A program made the translations under genes and the position numbers. Positions 15,453 to 64,000 of a stretch of 64,000 nucleotides of DNA are shown one piece after another. The stretch is from Stanieria cyanosphaera PCC 7437 (GTDB lineage Bacteria; Cyanobacteriota; Cyanobacteriia; Cyanobacteriales; Xenococcaceae): positions 124,001 through 188,000 of the forward strand of contig NC_019748.1 of NCBI RefSeq assembly GCF_000317575.1, given 5' to 3'. Under the pieces are notes generated by a model. That model was not told where the DNA came from, ran no database searches, and saw nothing but the letters and a program-made list of their open reading frames with translations. Every line of letters begins with the position of its first letter. The first letter of the stretch is position 1.

Positions 15453-18077
15453 CTACAAAGCATTGCGGAAGATAATTACTGTAGTATCAACTTTTCTGGC
15501 AATTTCTTCTGGAATATTACCGCGAACTGCATTTTGTAGTAATCCTTCGCTAGTTGCTCCAATAATAATTAAATCGTATTTTTCCGTAGTTGTAAGGCGA
15601 ATAATCGTTTCTGAAACAGAATAAGCGCGGATTGGTAAGATAGTTACAGGGAAATTGATTTTATCTCGCAAAGATTCTGCTGTTTTACTTAAGTGCTGAA
15701 GCGGTAAATCTGATTGATTAGGAGAATAAATTTGACACAGTTTTATTTTAGGTGTGCGAACTAGACCAGCAAAATTTGCCAAACCAGGTAGGATTTTTAA
15801 GGCTTTTTGAGTATTTGCTCCACCGGCAGTGGGAATTAACCATAAACCTGGTCGATCTAATTTATGAGGAAAAGAATAAGGTTTTTGTCCTAATTTGACC
15901 AGCATCAAATCGCAAGGAGCTTGTTTAATTAAAGTATCAACTACACTACCAAAAATCTGATCTGGACTAGAAGTACTTCCCTTCCAACCCATTAATAAAA
16001 GATTAATTTGTTCTTGTGCGATCGCTTCTAAAATAGCTTCTGCGGTATCGTTAGCAATCCGAATTTGAGTATGAATAGGAATATTATGCTGTTTTCCTGA
16101 CTGTTCTAAACGAGTCATTAAGGTTCGATTCGTAGTTAAATCTATTTGTGCTTGAGCAGGATAAATATATTTAGGTACAGAAATAACTTGCAGACAATCA
16201 ATTTCATACTTTTGATATTGTGCGATCGCTATGGCAATTTGTAACAAACTGGAGGCATTTTCAGGATTCGATAAAGGTAATAAAATGCGCCCCCTTCCCA
16301 TAGCAGGAGAACGAGTGCGATAAGCAACATAGGAAGGTTCTGGTTTAGCAGTTACTTCGCGATCGCCACTGAGTTGTTGTACTTCCGCTTTAATAATGTC
16401 ACTTTGAGTAATAATCCCGATCAGTTTACTACCCTGAGTTACAGGAAGACGAGATAATTGATAACGATTTAACAGATACAAAACATCTGCTAAAGAAGTA
16501 GTAGGATTAGCTGTAATCGGACGTGCTGTCATGATCTCTTTCAAGAGAATTGAATCATTTTTTGTGTTGGCAGTAGCTAAATCCGACTGAGTAATAATTC
16601 CTACCAAAGCACCTTCTTCCATCACAGGAAAACCACGGTGAGAAGAACGAGAAATAGCCTTCATAGCTTCTTCAACCGTCAAACTACTAGATAAAGTCTC
16701 TACCTGCGACTGCATCACATCAACCGCTTTTAATTTAGCCAAAAAATCATAATTAGGAGCATCTTCTTGAAGTTGAATCCCGCTAGCACTGAGAAGATGT
16801 TGATAAATCGAACCTCGATGAAAACTTTCGGCGACAATATAAGCCACCGCAGAAACAATCATCAACGGTAAAACTAGATTAAAATCCGTTGTCATTTCAA
16901 AGACAATCACAATTGCTGTGACGGGAACTCTGACTACTGCCGTAAAAAATGCACCCATGCCTGCCAAAGCAAAAGTATGAGCAGATTGACTAGCAATCAA
17001 ATTAACCTCTACCATCCCAACTAAATAGCCCAAAGCAGAACCCAAAACCAAAGCAGGAGCAAACAATCCCCCAGGTGCGCCACAACTATAAGCCAGAATC
17101 GTCAAGAAAAAATGAGCCGAAAAAGCGATCGCGATCGCTTGCCAACTCAATCCTCCAGAAATTAAAAATTCTCGTAAACCAGCATTATCACGAAAAAAAG
17201 TAGGTAAAAAAGCAATAATAATCCCAGAAATTAATCCTGCCAATCCCATTCGCAAAGGCATAGGTATTTTTAATTGACGGTTAAGTTTGATGCCGTAGAG
17301 AATACCGTGATTAAATAACACTCCCAACAAACCAGCTAAAATTCCCAACACAATATAAAAAGGAATCTCTTGAGCAGCAAAACTACTTTGTTGAGAAGAA
17401 CGTAACATAGTTGTAGGTATATTCAAGTCTGCCGAACCTAAACTACGAGAAACGACAGCCCCTGTAAAAGAAGCGACGATCGCTGTTTCTAAAGTCAAAC
17501 CCGAAACATCCCGCATCAACTCTTCAACCACAAATAAAACCCCTGCAATTGGCGTATTAAAACCTGCTGCTAATCCTGCTGCTGCACCTGCTGCAATCAT
17601 CTGACGGCGATTGGTAGGTGAATTAGGAATCCAACTACTTAACTGGGCTGCTAAAGCTGCGCCAATATGAACCGTCGGCCCGCGACGACCTAAAGTTAAA
17701 CCAGCACCCAAAACCAAAATAGTTCCAACCGCTTTTACTAAAGCAACTCTCAAATTCAAAGGCATCGGATATCTCGCTAATGCAGCTTTAACCTGGGGAA
17801 TACCACCTCCTGCTGCTTCTGGTGACAGAATTTCAATCGCCCAACCAGCAAGTGTCCCAAAGATCAAACCAGTTATTGGTAAAGTAATGATTGCACCATA
17901 TTCATAAGCAGTTTTGATCCGCCATCCTCCTAACCAGCCAATCCCCTGTTTCAGTAACAGAGCAGCTAATCCTGATAAAATACCGATTAAACAAGCTTCA
18001 ATTAACGCATAGCGGTTATCAATTGAACTGCGCGCCAAAACTCTGGATTTAAACCACTCATCAAGTCGATTCCTCAT
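15453..18077 (-). CDS. ClC-family anion channel/transporter with CBS pair and two Usp domains
   Basis: Large membrane protein (874 residues): ClC core about 25-425, CBS pair about 450-570 (VMQSQVETLSSSLTVEEAM; EIMTARPITANPTTSLADVL), then two universal-stress-protein modules about 590-735 and 745-874. The ClC core keeps GGGIPQVKAAL, FNTPIAGVLFVVEEL and GAPGGLFAPALVLG. Two filter positions differ from the classical type: GSGIP is GGGIP (G91) and the gating GREGP is GRRGP (R132 where the gating glutamate is expected). Loss of that glutamate usually removes proton coupling, so a passive channel is possible. CBS and Usp domains suggest nucleotide control. Diverges from bacterioferritin across 36 bp. 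Confidence 0.92.
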   Translation of the reverse strand: MRNRLDEWFKSRVLARSSIDNRYALIEACLIGILSGLAALLLKQGIGWLGGWRIKTAYEYGAIITLPITGLIFGTLAGWAIEILSPEAAGGGIPQVKAALARYPMPLNLRVALVKAVGTILVLGAGLTLGRRGPTVHIGAALAAQLSSWIPNSPTNRRQMIAAGAAAGLAAGFNTPIAGVLFVVEELMRDVSGLTLETAIVASFTGAVVSRSLGSADLNIPTTMLRSSQQSSFAAQEIPFYIVLGILAGLLGVLFNHGILYGIKLNRQLKIPMPLRMGLAGLISGIIIAFLPTFFRDNAGLREFLISGGLSWQAIAIAFSAHFFLTILAYSCGAPGGLFAPALVLGSALGYLVGMVEVNLIASQSAHTFALAGMGAFFTAVVRVPVTAIVIVFEMTTDFNLVLPLMIVSAVAYIVAESFHRGSIYQHLLSASGIQLQEDAPNYDFLAKLKAVDVMQSQVETLSSSLTVEEAMKAISRSSHRGFPVMEEGALVGIITQSDLATANTKNDSILLKEIMTARPITANPTTSLADVLYLLNRYQLSRLPVTQGSKLIGIITQSDIIKAEVQQLSGDREVTAKPEPSYVAYRTRSPAMGRGRILLPLSNPENASSLLQIAIAIAQYQKYEIDCLQVISVPKYIYPAQAQIDLTTNRTLMTRLEQSGKQHNIPIHTQIRIANDTAEAILEAIAQEQINLLLMGWKGSTSSPDQIFGSVVDTLIKQAPCDLMLVKLGQKPYSFPHKLDRPGLWLIPTAGGANTQKALKILPGLANFAGLVRTPKIKLCQIYSPNQSDLPLQHLSKTAESLRDKINFPVTILPIRAYSVSETIIRLTTTEKYDLIIIGATSEGLLQNAVRGNIPEEIARKVDTTVIIFRNAL

Positions 18078-22095: not shown

Positions 22096-23964
22096 ATGAA
22101 TTTTACAGATGATGATCGCGTTTTTGAAGAACTTTTAGAATATTTAAGAAGATCGCGGGGTTTCGATTTTACTGGTTACAAACGAACTAGCCTCAAACGT
22201 CGAGTACGCAAACAGATGCAATTGCGAGAACTAAACAGTTTTGAAGCTTATCTAGATTATTTGCAAGTTCACCAGGAAGAATTTCAATTACTTTTTAATA
22301 ATATTTTGATTAATGTTACTACTTTTTTTCGAGATAAATTGGCATGGAAATATTTGCAGGAACAAACTATTCCTCATTTAATTGAAGGCAAGTCACCGCG
22401 ATCGCCGATTCGGATTTGGAGTGCTGGTTGTGCTTCAGGAGAAGAAGCTTATACTCTCGCGATTTTGTTCGCAGACGTTTTGGGAGTAGAATTATTTCGT
22501 CAGCGAGTTAAAATTTATGCTACAGATGTAGACGAAGAAGCCCTGAATCAAGCTCGTCTAGCGAGCTACACTAGTCAACAAATCGAGCCAATTCCGCCAG
22601 AATTACGCGATCGCTTTTTTGAATTGCAAGGAGAACGCTATCTTTTTCGCCCAGACTTGCGCCGTGTGGTGATTTTTGGTCGTCACGACTTGGTACAAGA
22701 TGCACCGATTTCTCGCCTCGACTTGTTAGTCTGTCGTAATACATTAATGTATTTTAATGCCGAAACTCAAGCTAAAATTCTCAATCGTTTTCACTTCGCC
22801 CTTAATAATTCGGGATTTCTGTTTTTAGGTAAAGCAGAAATGTTGCTTACTCACGCAAATCTTTTTACTCCTGCCAATTTACAACATCGCATCTTTAGTC
22901 CAATAGCGATAACCAGAAAACGCGACCGACCAATCCTCATAGCTGACAATATCAATTTTGCGGAAGAAGAAGTGAACAATAATTCCCATTTTCATTGGCA
23001 ACTTCGAGAACTTGCTTTTGATACAGGTGCGATCGCTCAAATTATCATCGACCTCAATGGCAATATAGTACTAGCCAATGCTTCCGCTCGCAATCAATTT
23101 GGGATCAATTCCCTCGATTTGGGTCGACCTTTGCAAGATTTGGAAATTTCTTATCGTCCTCTAGAATTACGTTCTCCTCTCGAAAAGATTTACCAAGAAC
23201 GACAAATTATTATTATTGAAGATGTAGTTCGTAATCTCAACAAAAATGAAACTCAGTATTTAAATGTCCAGTTTATTCCCCTTGAAGGCGACAATGGTGC
23301 AATTTTGGGAGTAAGCATTTTATTTATTGATGTTACCCGTTATCATGACCTGCAAGTTCAACTTCAACAAGCGAATCAAGAATTAGAAACTGCTAATGAG
23401 GAACTTCAATCTAGTAATGAAGAGTTAGAAACCACTAATGAAGAATTGCAATCAACTAATGAAGAGTTGGAAACTACTAACGAAGAACTGCAATCAACTA
23501 ACGAAGAACTAGAGACAATGAATGAAGAACTGCAATCAACCAATGAAGAATTGCAGACTATCAATGACGAATTACGTCAACGGACAACCGAACTCAATCA
23601 AGCAAATAGTTTTCTAGGTTCGATTTTGGCAAGTATTCGCTCTGGTGTAATTGTAGTAGACTATCAGTTTAATATTCTCGGTTGGAATAATGAAGCCGAA
23701 AATCTCTGGGGATTGCGAGTCGATGAAGTTAAAGGACAATCTTTATTAGGTCTTGATATTGGTTTACCAGTTGCTCAATTACGAGAACCGATTCGTAGAT
23801 GTCTAAGTAGAAATAAAGACAAACAAGAAATCCAGCTTAAAGCTATTAATCGCCGAGGAAAAACTATTCAATGTCATATTAGTTTTAATCCCTTAATTGG
23901 GATTAATAAAGAACTTCAGGGTGTAATACTCTTGATAGATGAAATTGGGGCTTCAATTGACTAA
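22096..23964 (+). CDS. cheR: CheR methyltransferase with PAS domains and long coiled coil
   Basis: Fusion protein of 622 residues. Residues about 8-65 are the CheR N-terminal helices; 70-275 the SAM methyltransferase with FFRDKLAW, SAGCASGEEAYTLA (SAM loop) and RNTLMYFN. A PAS-like domain follows (about 305-415), then a striking coiled coil (about 420-495) made of heptads such as NEELQST and NEELETT repeated about nine times, then a PAS domain (about 500-620, ILASIRSGVIVVDYQ). There is no kinase part. This is the CheR-PAS half of the CheB/CheR/PAS proteins. The hybrid kinase at 24772 is a plausible partner. Confidence 0.9.
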   Translation: MNFTDDDRVFEELLEYLRRSRGFDFTGYKRTSLKRRVRKQMQLRELNSFEAYLDYLQVHQEEFQLLFNNILINVTTFFRDKLAWKYLQEQTIPHLIEGKSPRSPIRIWSAGCASGEEAYTLAILFADVLGVELFRQRVKIYATDVDEEALNQARLASYTSQQIEPIPPELRDRFFELQGERYLFRPDLRRVVIFGRHDLVQDAPISRLDLLVCRNTLMYFNAETQAKILNRFHFALNNSGFLFLGKAEMLLTHANLFTPANLQHRIFSPIAITRKRDRPILIADNINFAEEEVNNNSHFHWQLRELAFDTGAIAQIIIDLNGNIVLANASARNQFGINSLDLGRPLQDLEISYRPLELRSPLEKIYQERQIIIIEDVVRNLNKNETQYLNVQFIPLEGDNGAILGVSILFIDVTRYHDLQVQLQQANQELETANEELQSSNEELETTNEELQSTNEELETTNEELQSTNEELETMNEELQSTNEELQTINDELRQRTTELNQANSFLGSILASIRSGVIVVDYQFNILGWNNEAENLWGLRVDEVKGQSLLGLDIGLPVAQLREPIRRCLSRNKDKQEIQLKAINRRGKTIQCHISFNPLIGINKELQGVILLIDEIGASID

Positions 23965-62155: not shown

Positions 62156-62596
62156 ATGACTCATAGTCTTGTCATCAAGCTAGCTTTAATCTTGTTGCTA
62201 AGTATACTACCTTCACTCATTTCCATTTTTATTTTGCACCGAGTGAAGCAAAGATGGCAGTCGAAGTTACTCCGTCTTCTCACGGCGGAACGGAGCTTAC
62301 AAGGTTCTGAATTCGATTCAGAACACAGCCCCTTGCCTGCTTCGACTTCGTCAAGATTGAGAAGAGTTCGTTTGATGACAGATTATACTTCAAGCGTTAG
62401 TTCTTCAGGGAACGAGTTATTGGGGCATTTTTACGAATACGAGTTAGATAGTTTTGGTAATCAATATTCCACCGAGTTCAAAAAATATTTTGTGGGTGAT
62501 GTAAGTTGTCGTTACAACGCTTATTCTCCCTATATTCGTTGTGCTGTTAATCCTGATGGCCCTTGTCAAGATTGTATTCATTATCAAGCTAAGTAG
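62156..62596 (+). CDS. DUF6464-like protein with internal palindromic segment
   Basis: Protein of 146 residues: N-terminal helix (about 5-27, LALILLLSILPSLISIFIL), a basic linker, and a conserved C-terminal part EYELDSFGNQYSTEF and GDVSCRYNAYSPYIRCAVNP with GPCQDCIHYQ, four cysteines that suggest metal or disulfide. The cysteine domain matches the cyanobacterial DUF6464 group as I recall it. Residues about 36-64 are coded by an 87-bp nested palindrome (62260-62346), probably an in-frame insertion in the linker. Function unknown. Confidence 0.72.
   Translation: MTHSLVIKLALILLLSILPSLISIFILHRVKQRWQSKLLRLLTAERSLQGSEFDSEHSPLPASTSSRLRRVRLMTDYTSSVSSSGNELLGHFYEYELDSFGNQYSTEFKKYFVGDVSCRYNAYSPYIRCAVNPDGPCQDCIHYQAK
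62260..62346. repeat. 87-bp nested palindrome inside the DUF6464-like gene
   Basis: Outer arms GTCGAAG (62260-62266) and CTTCGAC (62340-62346); inner hairpin 1 CTCCGT/ACGGAG (62270-62275 and 62290-62295); inner hairpin 2 GTTCTGAAT-TCG-ATTCAGAAC (62304-62324) with CAAGG/CCTTG extending it. 87 bp equals 29 codons and keeps the frame open. Strongly folded RNA is predicted. Confidence 0.75.
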
Positions 62597-62752
62597 TAAT
62601 CTCTAGCGGTTTTTAAATAAATTAAAGAAGTCAGAGGTAAGTAATTAGTAATTACTTTCTTTGATTCAACTTGTTTTCGTAAGGAGTCCCATACTTACCC
62701 GAAGGGAAGCGATGGGTAATTGACTTTCTCTCACGATTAAATCAAATTGGTA

Positions 62753-63214
62753 TTAACTTGGATCGCAACGAATTTCAATCATAAAACCATCAGGATCGAA
62801 AAAATAAATTCCTTTGCCAGTAGGACGAGTTACAGGACCACTATCAATCTGAATTTGATTAGCTTTTAAAACTTCTACTGCCGAATCAAATAATTGGGGA
62901 TCGATATCAAAGGCTAGATGATTAGCACGAGTAAAAGCTTGACTAGGATCAGGATGGGGTGGAGATAAATCTGGTTCGCAGAATAAATCAATTACAGTGC
63001 CATCAGCAGTAATAAAATTAGCTACTTTACCTGCTGCTACTAGATTAATAAGAGTTTTCGGCACTTCTTCGCCTGTGAGTTCATGTAAGCCCAAAATTTT
63101 GCCATAAAAATGACGAGATGCAGCCATATCTTTCACATTTAAAGCAATATGATGAACTTTACGTAAACTTCCTGGTCTAAGAGAGTTTGATTTAATTTCT
63201 GGCTTTACAGTCAT
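62753..63214 (-). CDS. VOC-superfamily (glyoxalase/bleomycin-resistance-like) protein
   Basis: Protein of 153 residues with one pair of beta-alpha-beta-beta-beta modules: KVHHIALNVKDMAASRHFYG (metal H), ILGLHELTGEEV, RANHLAFDIDPQLFDSAVEV (second H) and GKGIYFFDPDGFMIEIRCD (E ligand). The family contains glyoxalases, dioxygenases and resistance proteins; no substrate is implied here. The first 11 codons fall in the 120-bp tandem duplication, whose second copy carries a duplicate start region upstream. Confidence 0.85.
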   Translation of the reverse strand: MTVKPEIKSNSLRPGSLRKVHHIALNVKDMAASRHFYGKILGLHELTGEEVPKTLINLVAAGKVANFITADGTVIDLFCEPDLSPPHPDPSQAFTRANHLAFDIDPQLFDSAVEVLKANQIQIDSGPVTRPTGKGIYFFDPDGFMIEIRCDPS

Positions 63215-63421
63215 GATTTTACTTAAGTTACAACGGTTAAAGCTGAAGTTAAAAGTTTAGTTTGCCAAGTACCCAAATCTGTTAAAGAGCGATCGCGATA
63301 TAGAGTTTGATTTAATTTCTGGCTTTACAGTCATGATTTTACTTAAGTTACAACGGTTAAAGCTGAAGTTAAAAGTTTAGTTTGCCAAGTATCCAAATCT
63401 GTTAAAGAGCGATCGCGATAT
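63182..63421. repeat. 120-bp tandem duplication spanning trmFO 3' end and VOC 5' end
   Basis: Copies 63182-63301 and 63302-63421 are identical except C at 63272 versus T at 63392. Copy 1 holds the VOC start codon; copy 2 holds the trmFO stop (63343-63345). Hence copy 1 also has an inert trmFO end and copy 2 an inert VOC beginning. 119 of 120 identities means the event is recent or under gene conversion. Confidence 0.95.
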
Positions 63422-64000
63422 TGTCCATATCTTTCTCTTTTATTGCGAATTTTACTAGGTAACTGCGGTAAAATGCCAAAGTTGGGAGGCATGGGTTGAA
63501 AATGTTTAGGAGAAGCAGAACTAATAAAATCAAACAATGCACCCATCATAGTAGTATTGGGTATAATTAGAGGTTCTTTGCCTAAAATTAATCTAGCTGC
63601 ATTAGTTCCTGCTAACCAACCTCCAGCAGTAGCAGCAGTGTATCCTTCTGTCCCTACTAATTGACCCGCAGCGAGTAAAGTTTCTCTAGATTGAAATTGT
63701 AAAGTGGGATGAAGAAGTCCAGGGGAATTAATAAAAGTGTTGCGATGCATCACTCCCATGCGGACAAATTCAGCTTTTTCTAAACCAGGAATGAGGCTAA
63801 ACACTCGTTTTTGTTCTCCCCATTTTAAATTGGTTTGAAAACCTACCATATTCCATAGTTCTCCTGCTTTATCTTCCTGACGCAATTGCACCACTGCATA
63901 AGGACGTTTAGATTTGTTGACTGGATCGCGAAAATCTCCTAAACGAGAGTCAAATAGTCCGACAGGTTTGAGAGGACCATAACGCATGGTATCTTCGCCA
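63343..64000 (-). CDS. trmFO: tRNA (uracil-54 C5) folate-dependent methyltransferase TrmFO, C-terminal part
   Basis: Final ~218 codons of a gene that continues beyond the right edge (residues before [12 protein letters not shown] are missing). TrmFO methylates U54 of the tRNA T-loop using methylenetetrahydrofolate and FADH2. Diagnostic segments: [93 protein letters not shown]. The last codons lie inside the 120-bp duplication. Confidence 0.93.

Follow-up and report, generated by a model that had tools for sequence, protein, structure and literature searches.

A probable recent 120-bp tandem duplication across the junction of trmFO and a VOC-family gene in a Stanieria-like cyanobacterial chromosome

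Short RecA-independent tandem duplications in bacteria arise by replication slippage, template switch or end joining. Microhomology at the junction is usual for slippage but not obligatory, and tandem copies of approximately the size described here can collapse and homogenise. For spontaneous duplications in Salmonella, the parts of one report drawn on here describe confirmation of five of eight tested candidates and a deduced cut-off of at least 11 bp of microhomology, with candidates having 7 and 9 bp failing confirmation (PMC3411829). As the same parts describe candidates that were preselected for microhomology and class splits of >5 kb as duplications, these results bear loosely on an event of 120 bp. 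In a partial literature search, no paper on the present locus was found, by title or abstract opening, among the matches listed for two strain names.

The locus lies in a window (i.e. the whole stretch of DNA that was analysed, 64,000 nucleotides in length) for which a sequence-only reading had claimed two adjacent copies of a repeat, differing at one base, at a trmFO-VOC junction, and a resulting doubling of the trmFO end and the VOC start. This description held in full. The copies were recovered at exact coordinates, two in number, with a spacing of 120 and 119/120 matching positions; the genes were confirmed by matches to NCBIfam TIGR00137 for TrmFO (E 7.4e-226, using the full-length protein, the rest of which was read from the genome beyond the window) and to Pfam PF00903 for the VOC protein (E 1.5e-18); and each copy holds both gene ends, one live and one dead (Table 1). 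The head-to-tail pair produced the top score of the 17 TRF rows in the window (period 120, 2.0 copies, 99% matches, score 473). The sole mismatch is at unit position 91, where base 63272 is C and base 63392 is T, and matching ends immediately outside both copies (i.e. 63181 versus 63301 and 63302 versus 63422). The matched length equals the period, so that the junction microhomology is 0 bp and the usual mark of slippage is absent. Agreement at 119/120 positions over a constant offset does not arise by chance.

Both genes are on the minus strand with trmFO upstream of the VOC gene, and the unit extends from within the VOC start to within the trmFO end. A sister genome (i.e. G001), belonging to another species and the sole other genome of the genus that was compared, carries the unit once and has trmFO next to the VOC gene in the order seen here; the gap from the trmFO stop to the VOC start is 8 nt in this sister and 128 nt here. 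Both predicted proteins stay full length despite the duplication, a point that the sequence-only reading does not mention; for the VOC protein, equality of length is counted from the ATG, the sister frame being also listable from an earlier TTG as 171 aa. Scores of the VOC protein against the NCBIfam glyoxalase and Fos models were far under the cut-offs (best 46.4 bits versus 140, among the best 25 of 33 rows), and it was therefore given no specific function assignment.

Table 1. Features at the duplicated trmFO-VOC junction, in window coordinates; sister, genome G001.
Feature	Coordinates	Strand	Description
Copy 1 of 120-bp unit	63182..63301	-	Live VOC start (ATG 63214-63212) and dead trmFO tail with probably derived C at 63272
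Copy 2 of 120-bp unit	63302..63421	-	Live trmFO tail (stop 63345-63343) and dead VOC start (ATG 63334-63332)
trmFO	63343..63999	-	C-terminal 218 residues in window; full protein 456 aa, length as in sister
VOC-family (glyoxalase-fold) protein	62753..63214	-	153 aa, from-ATG length as in sister
Relic ORF, 25 codons	63257..63334	-	Predicted by translation; made by the duplication, opens at old VOC ATG
Palindrome GCGATCGC (presumed HIP1)	63289..63296	.	5 nt from internal breakpoint; second copy 63409-63416

The genome containing the window consists of six contigs (5,544,990 bases), with the chromosome in a single contig of 5,041,209 bases, whilst the sister has two contigs and a chromosome of 5,319,768 bases. 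A chromosome of 5.04 Mb and five plasmids are given for Stanieria cyanosphaera PCC 7437 in the part of PMC7381351 drawn on, which agrees with the six-contig assembly. The genus search took in these two genomes. Positions 1-549 and 555-1247 of the junction query matched stretches of the sister that overlap by 115 bases, and the sister exhibited a single match to the 120-bp unit (106 bases) and a single match to the doubled unit (115 bases). A search of 27 genomes of the family detected a match to the doubled unit in 13 and none in 14. Among the 13, the genome under study matched the whole doubled unit and the sister matched one copy; the 11 others each had one short match of 26 to 49 bases at the trmFO end, which is too short to test the whole unit. 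Two matches to the doubled unit were observed in none of the 25 family genomes other than this genome and the sister. The two genes were found together in four of 85 loci (L002-L086), two from this genome and two from the sister, and not together in the 81 loci from outside the genus (28 obtained via trmFO-region DNA and 53 via the VOC protein), for which flanks were limited and often short; conservation of the junction across cyanobacteria was rejected within this scope, although the two genes may still be neighbours at some of these loci. The VOC protein scan of contigs that supplied the 53 loci omits this genome and very near ones, and hence provided no extra Stanieria record. The extra copy would have been either derived here or lost in the sister.

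The frequency of comparable repeats was assessed with our own script, which retained the smallest period per place, for tandem pairs with a period of 40-2000 and an identity of at least 90%. Five such pairs were present in 41 stretches of this genome (864,000 bases or ~16%, window included), and the other four, of which one lies in stretch L100, two in stretch L102 and one at 23415 of the window, had identities of 96.5, 94.9, 91.0 and 90.5%; no other pair at an identity of at least 99% was therefore present in the 864 kb sampled of this 5.54-Mb genome. One pair, of 90.5%, was detected in 20 stretches (400,000 bases) of the sister. A whole-genome search with the unit at E up to 1 generated 13 matches, of which two were full copies, both at this locus, and the remaining 11 were matches of 16 to 26 bases (E 0.013 to 0.58). 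As the genome lacked further full copies and the sample lacked further 99% pairs, neither a dispersed element nor an assembly-wide recurrent fault is indicated, and a mobile insertion was ruled out by the lack of another full copy.

Other repeats and length differences were observed near the locus and elsewhere. The DUF6464 gene at 62156-62596 encodes 146 aa as compared to 103 aa in the sister, with 90 bp extra in frame at 62260-62349 and a second in-frame difference of 39 bp extra at 62454-62492. Approximately 45 bp of the larger insert (near 62289-62335) recurs at seven other places in the genome with 78-84% identity, on contigs C1, C3 and C4; with an E threshold of 0.01, the search with this insert yielded 11 matches, counting the insert itself and three short pieces. 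This resembles the entry of a small dispersed repeat into the coding frame. A protein of pentapeptide-like A(D/N)LXX repeats, which we take to be a pentapeptide repeat protein, is encoded at 60558-61568 with several short tandem arrays. Tandem arrays with periods of 21 and 42 (42-bp unit, 4.3 copies, 81% matches) at 23366-23573 of the window are perhaps a coding repeat, and arrays with periods of 111 and 198 (91.0 and 94.9% identity) at 16505-16994 of stretch L102 (this genome, C1 at about 3.787 Mb) perhaps belong to a gene for a repetitive protein.

The polarity of the single difference was examined by comparison with the sister, which carries T at the variable position, as does copy 2, the copy encoding the TrmFO end. 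The codon specifies Asp441 in the live trmFO frame and would read Gly in the dead copy. Gly occurs in 0 of 33 aligned rows at this column (30 genomes, with three rows from this genome and two from the sister); residues vary at this position (D 11, E 8, A 5, T 5, N 2, S 1, I 1). Because the sister has T and none of the 33 TrmFO rows has Gly, the change is placed in copy 1: the C at 63272 most likely arose in its dead trmFO tail, or is a sequencing error there.

The sequence-only reading had offered a recent event or an assembly artefact, and the first of these is supported by the presence of one copy in the sister and by the contrast between one difference in 120 between copies and 66 differences in 326 four-fold sites between species (0.202, JC 0.236; trmFO, VOC and speD combined). 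The four-fold sites of speD alone differ at five of 65 positions. Divergence between species is 8.2% for trmFO, 10.0% for VOC and 3.0% for the slower speD, as compared to 0.8% between the copies. With the 120-bp unit taken as unconstrained, the age of the duplication would be ~4% of the time since the species split (i.e. 1/120 versus a JC value of 0.236), with a Poisson range of about 0.1 to 20%. Gene conversion between the copies would result in a true age exceeding this estimate.

Signals in and around the unit were also investigated. Simple consensus searches of 62600-63600 detected three promoter-like sites, as compared to a mean of 3.2 in shuffled sequences. These three all lie outside the unit and on the plus strand, the minus strand having none, and terminator-like sites were absent. 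With this count at the level of the shuffles and no terminator-like site, a new promoter or terminator was rejected, as was a structured RNA, since nothing in 62500-64000 matched Rfam at gathering score. As single-stranded DNA, the 120-nt unit folds unremarkably (z 0.76, with 150 of 200 shuffles at least as stable), and a palindrome-driven event was discarded since this fold is no better than those of the shuffles. The palindromic octamer GCGATCGC, presumably HIP1, has 724 occurrences in the 864,000 sampled bases; the chance of either breakpoint falling within 5 nt of one is ~0.03, and a role at the inner breakpoint was set aside given this figure and the post hoc nature of the observation.

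Taken as a whole, the locus is probably best explained as an ordinary, recent and likely neutral 120-bp tandem duplication, which would be present in the cell as well as in the assembly. Through a replication or repair accident, the trmFO tail would have been rejoined at its inner end to the VOC start; we infer template switching or end joining that involved sister strands to be the simplest route. Copy 2 completes TrmFO and copy 1 starts VOC, and the spacer separating the two genes includes the dead versions of the trmFO tail and the VOC start. Since the unit takes in the trmFO end together with the VOC start, both proteins are unaltered and the event would be able to persist. The lack of shared junction bases, of another full copy and of any sign of a mobile element makes an origin by homologous recombination or transposition unlikely. 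A selected regulatory change, in which the extra 120 bp either breaks the coupling of VOC translation to trmFO or adds a short upstream ORF, concerns the effect of the event and is compatible with the origin proposed here. The increase of the gap from 8 to 128 nt and the opening of a 25-codon ORF at the old VOC start fit such a change; if true, a tight trmFO-VOC pair would have become a pair separated by 128 nt with a leader ORF, and VOC translation would be altered. The searches reported above, with neither promoter-like sites on the minus strand nor terminator-like sites, no Rfam match and ordinary folding of the unit, argue against this change, which we consider very improbable.

The absence of junction microhomology counts against a duplication. 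Two contig ends placed in succession would likewise be consistent with the exact unit edges and with the mismatch, which is the 30th base counting back from where copy 1 ends. An assembly artefact of this type, with two contigs sharing a 120-bp overlap joined unmerged and one base error near a contig end, would account for the matched length being exactly the period, for the location of the derived base and for the single copy in the sister. This artefact is rather unlikely as the pair is the sole one of its kind in the 864 kb sampled and the chromosome is a single contig in the six-contig assembly. Exact k-mer overlaps, moreover, carry no mismatch, and the mismatch observed is a transition in a stretch free of coding duty, as true divergence could produce. 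The extra copy could alternatively date from the ancestor of both species, with loss by recombination in the sister and maintenance of near identity by gene conversion here. The propensity of such tandem copies to collapse and homogenise would permit this history, and the two-genome genus set provides no third genome for polarity; however, the copies are 119/120 identical in the face of the divergence of trmFO and VOC (and the slower speD) between the species, and two additional processes would be required. An old duplication is thus highly unlikely.

A recent tandem duplication would make this locus a small, clear example of an event that bridges a gene junction and escapes purifying selection, each gene retaining one intact end. 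The locus is a site at which copy number may vary between cultures, and the assembly deserves checking at this spot. An unmerged contig overlap would also produce two neighbouring copies that are almost identical and have exact edges; the present case differs in that the chromosome is one contig and the pair is a single case in the sample. The pair resembles the short RecA-independent tandem duplications of bacteria in its head-to-tail arrangement, near identity of two copies, lack of any mobile-element sign and single copy in the sister. It differs from these in having no junction microhomology and in consisting of a unit that bridges two genes, both of which are intact.
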